From positions 1-38,587 of the forward strand of contig WBUO01000013.1 of the NCBI GenBank assembly GCA_008933675.1: a stretch of DNA of 38,587 bases, written 5' to 3'. Of this stretch, positions 13,204 to 20,851 are shown piece by piece. This DNA comes from Dechloromonas sp. GTDB lineage: Bacteria; Pseudomonadota; Gammaproteobacteria; Burkholderiales; Rhodocyclaceae. The notes under the pieces were generated by a model. That model was given only the letters and a program-made list of their open reading frames with translations. It did no database searches and had not been told where the DNA came from. Positions within the stretch are counted from its first letter, which is position 1; each line of letters opens with the position of its first letter. The position numbers were made by a program, and so were the translations under genes.

Positions 13204-13231
13204 GGCTGCTCTCAGATCGTCTGTAGCAGCC
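13204..13231. repeat. Inverted repeat between the MscS gene and the 48-residue gene
   Basis: GGCTGCT (13204-13210) and AGCAGCC (13225-13231) are perfect 7-base arms with a 14-base loop. The repeat lies after the MscS stop and includes the last codons of the convergent small gene. No T-run follows on either strand. It may be a weak two-way transcript end. Confidence 0.35.
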
Positions 13232-13358
13232 GTCTCTCGAAGTTTCGCTCCAGCCGCTCCCGGCGTCGTTTGGCCAGTGCCCGCGTGGCGTGGGCGATAC
13301 GCTGGCCGAGCTTGTCGAGCTTGAGAAATTTCTTCGCCTTGCTTTTCGTCTTTTCCAT
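13212..13358 (-). CDS. Small, highly basic protein (48 residues)
   Basis: On the minus strand ATG 13358 opens a 48-codon frame ending at TGA 13214-13212. AAGGAGA lies 6 bases before the ATG, a strong ribosome-binding site. The protein starts MEKTKSKAKKFLKLDKLGQR and continues with IAHATRALAKRRRERLERNF before ERRLLQTI. It has roughly 18 Lys/Arg against 5 acidic residues, no cysteine, and a predicted amphipathic helix. Such a protein could bind nucleic acid, ribosomes or membrane. It lies between the convergent MscS gene and the GGDEF-EAL gene, on the same strand as the latter, 113 bases after its stop. I do not recognise a family. The Shine-Dalgarno match and uninterrupted basic helix support a real gene. 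Confidence 0.7.
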   Translation of the reverse strand: MEKTKSKAKKFLKLDKLGQRIAHATRALAKRRRERLERNFERRLLQTI

Positions 13359-13440
13359 GATGTCTCCTTGGCTGGTCGAAGGAGATTCAACTGTAGCGAT
13401 GGCGAGCGCGCCCTGTCTGTTCGCCTTCCTCGCTGTCTTT

Positions 13441-13457
13441 GTGACAATTCCTGACAG
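13441..13457 (-). promoter_or_regulatory. TGTCA direct repeat resembling a Pho box, upstream of the 48-residue gene
   Basis: Read on the minus strand the site is CTGTCAG-GAA-TTGTCAC: two TGTCA cores 10 bases apart. The Pho box is two CTGTCAT-like heptamers with a 4-base spacer; here the spacer is 3, so the match is imperfect. It lies 83 bases before the start codon of the small gene and 15 bases from the GGDEF-EAL coding end. An OmpR/PhoB-family regulator is a possible binder. Confidence 0.3.
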
Positions 13458-18178: not shown

Positions 18179-18204
18179 AAAAAAAACCCGCCACGAAGGC
18201 GGGG
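18179..18204 (-). terminator. Rho-independent terminator of the small-protein operon
   Basis: On the minus strand CCCGCC (18203-18198), loop TTCGT and GGCGGG (18192-18187) form a perfect 6-bp GC stem, followed by eight T (18186-18179). It lies 50 bases after the stop of the 59-residue gene at 18254, so it most likely ends the rstA-rstB-small-gene transcript. Confidence 0.9.
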
Positions 18205-18253
18205 TAACAGGGAGGTTTCGAAACAGGGGGATGTTTCGATAGGAGGGTTCGAT

Positions 18254-18433
18254 TCAGTCTTTGCGGTGACTTTTTCGCCAGCGTCTGGCGGCCATGATCA
18301 CTACGCCGGCTGCAACGGCGACAATGACAGCCTTGATGGGCTCTGCCTGTCCGTCTGTCAGCCAGTCTATGCCGGCAACGCCGACGAATACGCCAATACT
18401 TTCGCTTACTGGCAGATTGTCGGCAAAGGACAT
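18254..18433 (-). CDS. Small membrane protein (59 residues), second gene of a micro-operon
   Basis: ATG 18433-18431 shares a base with the TGA of the 38-residue gene (TGATG), which implies translational coupling. The 59-residue product starts MSFADNLPVSESIGVFVGVA and has a clear hydrophobic helix near 34-49 (IKAVIVAVAAGVVIMA), then a basic tail ending RRWRKSHRKD. The positive-inside rule predicts the C-terminus in the cytoplasm. A weaker hydrophobic stretch near 11-22 could form a second membrane segment, giving a hairpin. A good terminator follows 50 bases later. Downstream of rstAB on the same strand, it may be part of the regulon. I do not recognise the family. Confidence 0.7.
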   Translation of the reverse strand: MSFADNLPVSESIGVFVGVAGIDWLTDGQAEPIKAVIVAVAAGVVIMAARRWRKSHRKD

Positions 18434-18549
18434 CAGTGACGGGCCTGCCGCAGAGGAATGGTGGCAAGCGCCGGCTGCTTGGCGGGAATCAGTCCCAGTA
18501 GATAGTAGCGGGCGGTTTCCAGAAAATTCTTTATGTCCATGTCGATCAT
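18433..18549 (-). CDS. Small protein (38 residues), first gene of a micro-operon
   Basis: The frame stays open further upstream, but ATG 18549 has GAGGA about 10 bases before it and gives a 38-residue protein: MIDMDIKNFLETARYYLLGL then IPAKQPALATIPLRQARH. ATG 18540 with AAGGA is the alternative. It has an amphipathic N-terminal helix with a short hydrophobic patch (ARYYLLGLIPA) and a basic C-terminus. The TGA overlaps the next ATG. It lies 146 bases after the rstB stop on the same strand, with repeated GTAAC motifs in between. The function is unknown; a membrane-linked small regulator or stress peptide is a reasonable guess. Confidence 0.6.
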   Translation of the reverse strand: MIDMDIKNFLETARYYLLGLIPAKQPALATIPLRQARH

Positions 18550-18628
18550 TTCCTTGTTTTCCTCTTGGCGGGATTGATGTTGATCCATGGGTTGCATTCT
18601 AGGGAGGGACAGTGCCAGGGTCTGTTGC

Positions 18629-18681
18629 GTAAACGTGCCACCGTCGTAACGGCCGATGATTCTTGATGACGTTTTGTAACG
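18629..18681 (-). promoter_or_regulatory. Candidate RstA-box cluster upstream of the micro-operon
   Basis: Minus-strand GTTAC cores lie at 18681-18676 (CGTTACA context) and 18651-18646 (CGTTACG), exactly 30 bases apart. A related GTTTAC lies at 18634-18629. The E. coli RstA box is TACATNTNGTTACA; the upstream copy reads GCCACGTCGTTACA and matches 9 of 12 defined bases. Three turns of the helix between repeats is suited to cooperative binding. The cluster lies 80-130 bases before the first small gene and is directly downstream of rstB. Confidence 0.45.
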
Positions 18682-18695
18682 ACGTGGCAAACGGC

Positions 18696-20126
18696 CTACT
18701 GGTGGGCTTTCCAGGCTAGCGTGAAACGTGCGCCGCCGAGTTCTGCGGCATCGGCAGTTGCGCTCCCGCCATGCAGTTCGAGTACCCTGCGGGCAATGGC
18801 CAGACCGAGGCCATAGCCACCCGTCGAGCGGTCGCGTGACCGGTCTAGGCGGGTGAACGCCGAGAAAATGTGTTCGCGATCTTCTGCAGGAATGCCGATC
18901 CCGTCATCGTCGATATGAATCAGGATGCGTTCGTTGATCAGTTCGGCGCTGACCTTGATTTGCCGTCCGGCGTACTTGAATGCATTGCGCAGTATGTTGC
19001 GCAGTGCATAGGGCATGGCCTTGCGATCCAGATCGACGTTCAGGTCGGCAGGCAGTCGGCTGGTGTCGACGGATACTTCGAGTTGGCGCCCAAGCAGGCG
19101 GACTGATTCGACTTCGTCCGTCAGCCAGTCGGCAAAGCGGACGCTGGAGAAGTGCGGTTCCGGTGTTTCCCGCTCGAAGCGGGCATAGGTGAGACTGGTA
19201 TCGATCAAATGGTCGAGCTCGTCGAGATCATCCTCCATCATCGTCCACAGGCGTTCCCGTTCAGCAGGCTCGTCGGTTTCGGCCAGCATTTCGAGTGCGA
19301 AACGCATGCGGGCAATCGGTGTGCGCAACTCGTGCGAGATGCCACAGGATAGCTCCCGGTGCGTGGCCAGCAGTTGCTGAACCCGTTCGGCCATGCTGTT
19401 CATCGTGTCGGCCAGTGTGGAGAAGAGCTGGCTGCGTGCCGGTGGTGAGCGGGCATCGAAATCGCCATCACCAAGGTCCCGGGCAGTCTGGCGGATCGCT
19501 TCCAGGTCGCGCCAGACAGGGCGTACCCAGAACCAGAGCGCAATGCCAAAAATCAGACCGGTCAGGCTCCAGGTCAGTAGGCGCAGGCGAACCTCGAGTG
19601 GCAGGCGGTCTTTGAGTTCCGGGTTGCGATTGGATGCCAGCGGTCCCACCACGAGTACCTGGCTGCTGTTGCCAAGCCGGTGATACATGATGTCGCCATC
19701 GTGATCGATGGCGATGTCTCCGGCATCGAGTTTGACGACTTGCTGTGGTTTAAGGGTTTCATCAAGGGTGATGCGTTCGACGATGTTCAGCCGATAGGAG
19801 AATTTCTCGTCCAGTTCCTTGATTTTCTTTTTCCAGGTGCTGCGAGGCTGGCGGAAAAGTTCGTCCTCGATCAAGGTGATGGTGCCGCGCATGAAGCGAC
19901 GCGCGTAATCGTCCGTGATGCCGCGTTGTGCTGTTGAAATGACGAAATCGGCGGTGAAGGCGATGGCGACGAAGGAGCCCATGGCCAACAGGTAGAAATT
20001 GAAGAAGAGCTTGGACAGGCTGTAGCGTCCCCCGCGCCAGCGTGGCAGGGAAACGCGGAACAGTGAGCGGGCAAGCCCCTGGCTGCGTTCCCGGGCCGTC
20101 GCTTCGCCGGGCTCAGTTCCAGTCAT
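18696..20126 (-). CDS. rstB: Sensor histidine kinase, RstB type
   Basis: The 476-residue inner-membrane kinase has two transmembrane helices (near 40-60 and 185-205) around a roughly 125-residue periplasmic domain. A HAMP linker, the H-box CGISHELRTPIARMRF with H265, the N-box and a C-terminal ATPase with GYGLGLAIA follow. The TRLDRSRDRSTGGYGLGLAI stretch and the AELGGARF ending are close to E. coli RstB. The open frame extends to 20249, but ATG 20126 gives a normal short cytoplasmic N-terminus and overlaps rstA by 14 bases. In enterobacteria RstAB responds to low Mg and acid via PhoPQ; here the trigger is unknown. Confidence 0.92.
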   Translation of the reverse strand: MTGTEPGEATARERSQGLARSLFRVSLPRWRGGRYSLSKLFFNFYLLAMGSFVAIAFTADFVISTAQRGITDDYARRFMRGTITLIEDELFRQPRSTWKKKIKELDEKFSYRLNIVERITLDETLKPQQVVKLDAGDIAIDHDGDIMYHRLGNSSQVLVVGPLASNRNPELKDRLPLEVRLRLLTWSLTGLIFGIALWFWVRPVWRDLEAIRQTARDLGDGDFDARSPPARSQLFSTLADTMNSMAERVQQLLATHRELSCGISHELRTPIARMRFALEMLAETDEPAERERLWTMMEDDLDELDHLIDTSLTYARFERETPEPHFSSVRFADWLTDEVESVRLLGRQLEVSVDTSRLPADLNVDLDRKAMPYALRNILRNAFKYAGRQIKVSAELINERILIHIDDDGIGIPAEDREHIFSAFTRLDRSRDRSTGGYGLGLAIARRVLELHGGSATADAAELGGARFTLAWKAHQ

Positions 20127-20814
20127 GTTTGCTGAACAGGTAGCCTTTGCCGCGTACCGTCTTGATTCGGGTCGGGTTCTCCGGATCGTCGTTGAGCTTC
20201 TTGCGCAAGCGTGAAATGCGCGCATCGATTGAGCGGTCGAGGCCGTCAAAGCCGATGCCGCGTAGTTCCTGAAGCAGGTCGTCGCGCGACAGGACGTTGC
20301 CGGCGTGTGAGGCGAGCAGCCAGAGCAGGTCGAATTCGGCGGTTGTCAGGTCTATGCTGGCAGTGTTCAACGTGGCGGTGCGCGTCGCCTGACTGATGCG
20401 AAACTGGCCGAAGACCAGTGATTCCGATTCGCCTGCTGCTTCGCCGGTGTTCGGCAGGCGACGCAGCAGGGCCTTGATTCTGGCGAGCAGTACACGCGGC
20501 TGGACTGGTTTGGCAATGTAGTCGTCGGCACCCATTTCAAGGCCGAGAATCTGGTCAAAGTCTTCGTCGCGGGCGGTCAGCATCAGGATAACACCGCGGT
20601 ACTGGGGGCGCACGGCTCGGCAAACCTCGAAGCCATCCTTGCCGGGGAGCATGACGTCGAGAATGACCAGGTCGGGCTGTTCTTCCAGAATCCGCGCTTC
20701 AGCAGTGTCGCCGCGAGGTTCGATGCTCACGGTCAGGTCATTCTTGGCCAGATATTCGGCGGTAAGTTCGGCCAGTCGAGCGTCGTCTTCGACGAGGAGT
20801 ATGCGAGTGTTCAT
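20113..20814 (-). CDS. rstA: OmpR-family response regulator, RstA type
   Basis: The 233-residue protein has a receiver (1-120; D53 in ILDVMLPGKDGFEVCR, K102 region YIAKPVQPRVLLARI) and a winged-helix output domain (about 130-230). FDGLDRSIDARISRLRKKL and RIKTVRGKGYLFSKHDW correspond closely to the E. coli RstA C-terminus, so orthology is likely. It binds DNA as a phosphorylated dimer at direct repeats; the GTTAC repeats at 18629-18681 are candidate sites. It is the first gene of the rstA-rstB transcript and overlaps rstB by 14 bases. Confidence 0.94.
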   Translation of the reverse strand: MNTRILLVEDDARLAELTAEYLAKNDLTVSIEPRGDTAEARILEEQPDLVILDVMLPGKDGFEVCRAVRPQYRGVILMLTARDEDFDQILGLEMGADDYIAKPVQPRVLLARIKALLRRLPNTGEAAGESESLVFGQFRISQATRTATLNTASIDLTTAEFDLLWLLASHAGNVLSRDDLLQELRGIGFDGLDRSIDARISRLRKKLNDDPENPTRIKTVRGKGYLFSKHDWN

Positions 20815-20851
20815 CTTGGCATCTTAACCAGCGCGAAGCGGGTGGTCCAGC

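Follow-up and report, generated by a model that had tools for sequence, protein, structure and literature searches.

A putative RstA-driven mRNA for two microproteins with a conserved C-rich candidate sRNA at its 3' end, located behind an rstAB-like pair of Dechloromonas

In this study, we analysed a stretch of 38,587 nt from a Dechloromonas sp. genome (the whole of which is referred to as the window) and propose that the two tiny genes behind its rstAB-like pair, here called ORF1 and ORF2, are encoded on an RstA-driven mRNA whose 3' end is, or yields, a Shine–Dalgarno-blocking small RNA, with ORF2 as a possible feedback arm; we put the probability of this reading at roughly two in three. According to this proposal, phosphorylated RstA would activate a dedicated promoter just behind rstB, giving an mRNA of about 400 nt for the coupled ORF1 and ORF2, of which the first would be a small peptide of presumably helical structure and the second a two-helix membrane protein with its basic tail in the cytoplasm. 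The mRNA would terminate in a conserved RNA of about 70 nt, in which a C-rich unpaired linker separates two hairpins, and this RNA, either within the mRNA or after release by an RNase, would pair through CCUCC/CUCCCUGU with the Shine–Dalgarno regions of target mRNAs and repress them. The RNA pool would be enlarged by a stand-alone paralogue at another place in the genome, and ORF2 may tune RstB by feedback. The transcript and its processing, the use of Hfq, the targets, the binding of RstA and any contact with RstB are predictions made from sequence. Since the tiny genes appear to be switched on by the sensor and their message ends in a conserved RNA, control of other genes by the sensor probably involves RNA in addition to protein.

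RstAB is known mainly from enteric bacteria, and the host family groups environmental bacteria that take part in nitrogen and perchlorate reduction. If our proposal is correct, RstAB would act in this family through an RNA and through a membrane microprotein. Among the matches listed, the titles and abstract openings of the literature on RstAB, on Dechloromonas and on Rhodocyclaceae sRNAs contained no account of this system, which is weak evidence of absence.

Table 1. Features of the locus in the window
Feature	Position	Strand	Remarks
rstA-like OmpR-family response regulator	20113..20814	-	Pfam Response_reg and Trans_reg_C
rstB-like sensor kinase, longest frame	18696..20249	-	Pfam HAMP, HisKA and HATPase_c
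GTTACAAAACGTCAT, two RstA-box-like half-sites 10 nt apart	18666..18680	-	motif in 33/33 loci
Third half-site GTTAC, 20 nt on	18646..18650	-	33/33 loci; N15 in 30, N16 in 3
CAACAGAC block, in place of a consensus -35	18620..18627	-	N18 from third half-site in 32/33 loci
-10 hexamer TAGAAT	18596..18601	-	N18 after CAACAGAC in 31/33 loci
ORF1, 38 aa	18433..18549	-	N-terminal half conserved (NI..F[LIM]..AR.YL), tail variable
ORF2, 59 aa	18254..18433	-	predicted two-helix membrane hairpin, basic C-terminal tail
C-rich 3'UTR RNA, candidate sRNA	18179..18250	-	26/33 loci; 5' end placed from conservation
Hairpin 1, C5 loop (UCGAAACAUCCCCCUGUUUCGA)	18218..18239	-	fold
Unpaired linker AACCUCCCUGUUA, proposed seed (anti-Shine–Dalgarno)	18205..18217	-	UCCCUGUU invariant in 26/26 aligned
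Intrinsic terminator, T8 tail, RNA 3' end	18179..18203	-	fold

The rstAB-like pair and the promoter behind it

On the minus strand, the locus is made up of rstA, rstB, a promoter, ORF1, ORF2 and a C-rich RNA ending in a terminator, in this order (Table 1). The closest NCBIfam equivalogs are RstA for the response regulator (298 bits, cut-off 330) and RstB for the kinase (322 bits, cut-off 478), and because both scores lie below the cut-offs we refer to the pair as RstAB-like. The RstB match begins at residue 79, and the true start of rstB is probably further downstream than that of the longest frame. Control of rstAB itself by RstA was considered and discarded, as no box was seen by eye when the approximately 110 nt preceding rstA were inspected in the window and in 31 further loci (L165–L195). 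In the window (20814–20830, minus strand) and in own-genus loci among L165–L177, a TAAGAT/TAAACT-like -10 element lies only about 6–8 nt before the rstA ATG, and such a short distance suggests that the rstA mRNA may be leaderless.

Of 35 same-genus relatives, 32 have ORF2 at E <= 1e-10, as does the own genome, and rstB is located just upstream of it in all 33 of these loci. The three same-genus genomes without ORF2 are G021, G022 and G023. G021 and G023 are both 74% complete and contain no rstB match at E <= 1e-60; G022 is 99% complete and has rstB, and nothing recognisable was found in the stretch behind it. Among 50 named records, those whose titles state a genus read Azonexus or Dechloromonas, with the single exception of a record titled Desulfobulbus (L063, WQUQ01000264.1), which has this betaproteobacterial locus and is probably misnamed or derived from a mixed bin.

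Alignment of the gap between rstB and ORF1 across the loci revealed a conserved promoter that was absent from the preliminary description of this DNA. The order GTTAC-N5-GTCAC-N15/16-GTTAC-N18-CAACAGAC-N18-TAGAAT could be fitted in 33/33 genus loci, exactly in 11 and with at most two substitutions in 28, the worst fit being L015 with five, in a search that tolerated seven substitutions and spacers of 13–17, 18–26 and 14–18. Tandem TACA-type half-sites 10 nt apart, the arrangement looked for in a member of the RstA regulon, are present upstream of the promoter in all 33 loci, with the second half-site usually reading CAC or CAT instead of TAC. The E. coli RstA box is given as TACATNTNGTTACA in the available text of PMC4117788, and the 10-nt spacing of the half-sites is of the same form. 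These features suggest that RstA may bind at the putative promoter, from which transcription would start near position 18589.

In 50 shuffled windows, a looser version of the pattern (up to three substitutions) had 0.42 occurrences per strand; the two real strands together hold three, among them the promoter between rstB and ORF1, and given this background the loose pattern lacks specificity when used alone. The promoter motif is well enough defined for a beginning list of the remaining regulon. Elsewhere in the window, an RstA-type promoter pattern with two substitutions (approximately 13390–13455) precedes a very basic 48-aa frame (13212–13358, minus strand) that has AAGGAG before its ATG and lies behind a GGDEF-EAL gene; this frame is a possible further RstA target, it being understood that the loose pattern arises by chance too.

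The C-rich 3' RNA and its relatives

The preliminary description had noted a textbook terminator behind ORF2. The terminator is real, with a stem at 18187–18203 followed by T8, but as a full account it falls short, because it forms the end of a conserved C-rich RNA of about 70 nt. Behind ORF2, the blocks ACCCUCCU, a hairpin with a C-rich loop, the linker with the invariant UCCCUGUU and the terminator follow each other, so that in 26 of the 33 genus loci a conserved block stands behind the stop codon and ends in an intrinsic terminator, as looked for in an sRNA located in a 3'UTR. The intact RNA is missing from the other seven (L013, L015, L029 and L031–L034), which retain the promoter and the ORFs and in some cases the terminator only; these were left out of the RNA alignment. 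The mean pairwise identity among the 26 RNAs is 85% over about 68 columns, unpaired bases included, as compared with 51% at the third codon positions of ORF2 (28 sequences) and 27% in the 60 nt past the T run (25 sequences), conservation stopping abruptly after that run. Together with the invariant linker and the stand-alone copies described below, this identity led us to reject an ordinary terminator as the complete account. The z scores of the fold are -4.4 for the window copy and -4.3 for the stand-alone paralogue. Covariation is weak, since both sides have changed with pairing preserved in only three of the 14 pairs, and half of the pairs never vary.

A covariance model, R1, was built from the 26 genus RNAs, the window copy among them; its E-values are rough. 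Two strong places were found in the own genome, namely the window copy (79.6 bits, part of the training set) and a copy on contig C479 outside the training set (53.5 bits, E 4.5e-11), the next best match reaching 22 bits. The latter, L114 (G000:C479:16297-16366), is a stand-alone copy with no ORF1 or ORF2 before the RNA. By eye, the promoter-like elements GTTACA, CTACG, ACAGAC and TACACT stand just before it, in a form that departs from the motif. Its counterparts L127, L151, L152 and L153 (in G206, G121, G071 and G171) carry the promoter pattern with one or two substitutions, and in G206 the stand-alone copy scores 57.3 bits and a 3'UTR copy is not recognisable. Also by eye, a frame with a CxxCH motif (cytochrome c-like) was seen downstream of L114 and a frame with ferredoxin-like cysteine motifs alongside.

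An alignment of 25 ORF2 proteins was used as the query in 297 genomes of the family, some of them incomplete. ORF2 was found at E <= 1e-3 in 44 of these genomes, in 10 of 68 genera, and rstB at E <= 1e-90 in 61; both were present in 43 genomes, rstB only in 18, ORF2 only in one and neither in 235, which places ORF2 in 43/61 rstB-positive as against 1/236 rstB-negative genomes. In 40 of the 44 cases ORF2 lies 183–1376 nt behind rstB on the same strand. Of the other four, two carry ORF2 and rstB on separate contigs and one is without an rstB match; the last match, in G168 (E 7e-4), lies away from rstB, contains an internal stop and is probably false.

Behind ORF2, a CCTCCCT...T6 motif occurs within 700 nt in 16 of the 19 non-genus ORF2 loci, with 0/19 on the opposite strand and 0/19 in the rstB stretch, for a motif chosen after these loci had been seen. 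The RNA sits in the 3'UTR as in the window in L043, L045 and L047, and in 11 of the 19 loci an additional RstA-type promoter behind ORF2 is followed by a free-standing RNA, with tandem free-standing RNAs in L049, L050, L053 and L056. The free-standing RNAs of eight of the loci contain a CAGCG hairpin, whose loop is mostly C-rich, together with a GACCCUCCCUGA stretch. Behind the two tandem sRNA genes of L049 (from 2289) and L056 (reverse, from 2462), a third RstA-type promoter precedes a protein of 65–68 aa with a signal-like N-terminus, for which no Pfam match was obtained at E <= 1 in L049. A promoter–RNA unit was present in 11 of 16 further rstB loci (L180–L195) and absent from five; in L185, three tandem sRNA genes with RstA promoters are located at +123, +386 and +568 behind rstB, their bodies diverging and CCTCCCTGAT being common to them.

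With R1, matches at E <= 1e-3 were obtained in 36 of 150 family genomes, eight of which, including G170, scored above 45 bits. Among the 29 family loci derived from this search (L122–L150), 19 are without the promoter pattern and L133 has only a distant one; these are for the most part weak R1 matches, and no conclusion is based on them. In the order, 7/300 genomes gave a match at E <= 1e-5, three of them from the own genus (own genome included); the other four look by eye like ordinary terminators near C runs and were not counted.

It is unlikely, in our view, that the operon acts through protein only, with the RstA-induced ORF2, together with ORF1, binding RstB and damping or rerouting it and the 3' RNA serving as no more than a terminator whose hairpin stabilises. 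This would suit the small size and conservation of ORF2, its predicted membrane helix and its place behind an RstA-type promoter, and ORF2 is found without rstB in only one of the 44 ORF2-bearing family genomes. However, it accounts neither for the invariant linker of the RNA nor for stand-alone RNA genes without ORF1 and ORF2. Four of the 16 further rstB loci lack a linked ORF2; among these, G168 has three promoter–RNA units directly behind rstB and G118 has one, and no such unit was found in G235 and G084. G168 and G118 provide the strongest argument that RstAB has the RNA among its outputs and not the peptides alone. As an output, the RNA probably matters as much as the two peptides do.

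More tentatively, and at somewhat less than even odds, the RstAB system of the Rhodocyclaceae may act largely through a family of C-rich, Shine–Dalgarno-blocking sRNAs, the core target being a bifunctional two-microprotein mRNA that ends in the sRNA; in the course of evolution the sRNA would have moved between a 3'UTR form and stand-alone and tandem forms with promoters, RstA control being retained, and ORF2 would close a feedback loop on RstB. If so, these loci would offer a natural series in which to study the passage of an sRNA between 3'UTR and free-standing existence under a single regulator.

A diverged member of a described family, SorX or RF02278, is likewise an improbable identity for the RNA. 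Within Rfam, the window RNA scores highest with SorX (RF02784, 28.9 bits), as do four of six relatives scanned (L004, L008, L020 and L026, 31.3–36.9 bits), all of these scores being under the curated cut-off of 46.6; L043 and L045 gave no SorX match at E <= 0.1. The stand-alone paralogue reaches 31.8 bits with RF02278, under the cut-off of 50, a family with which the window RNA gave no match at E <= 5 and was not among the own-genome matches at E <= 1; matches below the cut-off occur in 11 of 14 control genomes. Against such an identity also stands a separate RF02278 'toxic' double-hairpin sRNA gene elsewhere in the same genome (L159, G000:C453:27211-27274), which at 64.4 bits exceeds the cut-off and is without the RstA-type promoter pattern. 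For anti-hemB (RF02837) the window scored 19.2 bits and the best relative, L055, 33.0 bits (cut-off 49.5), and membership of an Rfam family was discarded, as none reached its cut-off for the window RNA or the relatives scanned. C-rich families of other phyla (Scr3202, 6C and ar14) also gave scores below their cut-offs, of up to 38.1 bits on L056, which indicates that C-richness alone drives part of the Rfam similarity and that convergence may account for the resemblance. A match to Hrs1 fell on the strand opposite to the RNA.

We also consider it quite improbable that the 3' RNA acts only in cis, in termination and in protection of the mRNA 3' end, with no targets. Its location in a 3'UTR would be in agreement with such a role, and the target search gave action in trans no support. 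A long target pattern had four matches as compared with two in a backwards control; a short one had matches in 25/25 genomes and few in the control, an excess that says nothing because the backwards pattern destroys the Shine–Dalgarno sequence. G021 and G023, in which rstB was not matched at E <= 1e-60, gave three and seven target matches, like the other genomes, and as a Shine–Dalgarno-like sequence makes matches common the test is uninformative. What speaks against action in cis only is the high identity, unpaired bases included, set against the poorly conserved flank, and the stand-alone and tandem copies with promoters of their own. An Hfq gene is present in the genome (PF17209, 103 bits, C394), as would suit the proposed sRNA.

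The two microprotein genes

The frames of 38 and 59 codons overlapping as TGATG were placed correctly in the preliminary description with regard to coordinates, strand and lengths, and the Shine–Dalgarno-like GAGGA that it had noted before the ORF1 ATG was found again, an AAGGA being present closer to the ATG. A one-base overlap, TGATG or TAATG, is kept in 28 of the 33 genus loci, and the ORF1 frame is present in all 33, with the weakest match in L030 (E 0.017). Among the 20 loci L043–L062, in which L044 is from the own genus, an ORF1-like peptide F[LIMV]...[ATH][RH]..[LF] precedes ORF2 in ten and this pattern is absent from the other ten.

A dN/dS comparison, which had been suggested in the preliminary description, shows purifying selection in both frames that is absent in the other frames. 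For ORF2, pN was smaller than pS in 528/528 pairs, with a median dN/dS of 0.28 over 267 unsaturated pairs, and for ORF1 in 515/528 pairs, with a median of 0.45 over 268 pairs; as the pairs are not independent, these counts are to be taken as signs and not as tests. In the other two frames of ORF2 (28 sequences of equal length) the signal is lost, and stops occur in 25/28 and 14/28 sequences. The 18-codon core of ORF1 is free of stops in 33/33 loci; its +1 and +2 frames show no selection signal and contain stops in 14/33 and 8/33. In many loci the reading frame of ORF1 stays open further upstream; an earlier start was rejected, as the 36 nt before the core are without a clear coding signature (fraction of pairs with pN smaller than pS 0.71 in frame and 0.70 in frame +1); the -10 element falls inside this open stretch. 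Neither conservation near rstAB in the relatives nor the search for frame-breaking indels spoke against the two genes, and with both frames behind rstB in 33/33 same-genus loci the proposal of a real coupled micro-operon tied to rstAB is borne out. We conclude from the sequence comparison that ORF1 and ORF2 are real genes. That they are chance frames within a conserved regulatory region, for which their shortness could be cited, is hardly credible given a frame kept throughout the genus loci, the purifying selection confined to it and homologues in other genera, and for ORF2 it has already been refuted.

The ORF2 product contains a single, strongly hydrophobic segment and ends in a basic tail, in agreement with the membrane helix and basic C-terminus described before, and 32 of the 33 orthologues pass a hydropathy threshold that we set ourselves (17-residue mean > 1.6). 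The AlphaFold2 model is a two-helix hairpin (residues 9–29 and 32–57; mean pLDDT 82, pTM 0.50). Over 25 aligned proteins P8, V15, F16, G18, G21, W24, L25, G28 and R50 are invariant. No Pfam or NCBIfam family matched ORF1 or ORF2 at its cut-off (best E 0.03–0.09), and there was no PADLOC match at E <= 0.1. ORF2 may be a feedback arm on the RstB kinase, an idea favoured by its predicted membrane topology, by the promoter of RstA type and by its close linkage to rstB.

Comparison with known systems

MgrB binds PhoQ and damps it, and both CpxP and MgrB are small regulators of their own kinase that are induced by the same two-component system. The corresponding combination here, a small membrane protein under a promoter of the same system, would consist of the predicted ORF2 helix and a promoter recognised by its motif alone. 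We know of no sequence relation of this locus to CpxP/CpxQ or MgrB/PhoQ. According to the available text of PMC9438474, CpxQ is made from the cpxP mRNA, and a single mRNA that yields a kinase regulator as well as an sRNA is the likeness that we propose for ORF2 and the 3' RNA.

SorX of Rhodobacter sphaeroides is described, in the accessible parts of PMC6238624 and PMC9438474, as an sRNA derived from the 3'UTR of a gene for an OmpR-type protein. It is excised from this 3'UTR with RNase E acting in the last step, and in the alignment it resembles the window RNA in having a hairpin, an unpaired linker of the ACCUCCCUGU type and a terminator. In contrast to SorX, the parent mRNA proposed here encodes two microproteins rather than a regulator, has an RstA-type promoter of its own and is accompanied by stand-alone and tandem copies of the RNA.

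The betaproteobacterial RNAs of the RF02278 family (ncS27, bdhR1) form a double hairpin with CU-rich unpaired stretches that are predicted to lie over ribosome-binding sites (PMC5688073, available portion), and RNAs of the RF02278/S17 kind are about 57–92 nt long and present in three to five copies per Burkholderia genome (PMC5688073 and PMC11722255, in the same measure). In Bordetella, the S17 RNA has conserved sites and is processed by RNase E out of a longer transcript containing a small ORF, and its promoter is independent of BvgA in vitro, as far as stated in the available text of PMC11722255. The window RNA is similarly short, with two hairpins and a C-rich unpaired stretch; the difference is that it is unmatched by the RF02278 model at E <= 5, and a member over the cut-off sits elsewhere in the same genome.

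In Listeria, the LhrC1–5 sRNAs are several copies that all require the LisRK two-component system, and their UCCC motifs, in loops and single-stranded stretches, are assumed to block Shine–Dalgarno sequences (PMC4132741, available text). Multiple C-rich sRNAs under one two-component system are thus common to both cases, although the organism is unrelated and the available text of PMC4132741 contains no description of LhrC within a protein-coding mRNA. By analogy, and with scores that stay below the cut-offs for membership, the window RNA looks to work in the manner of SorX, RF02278 and LhrC.
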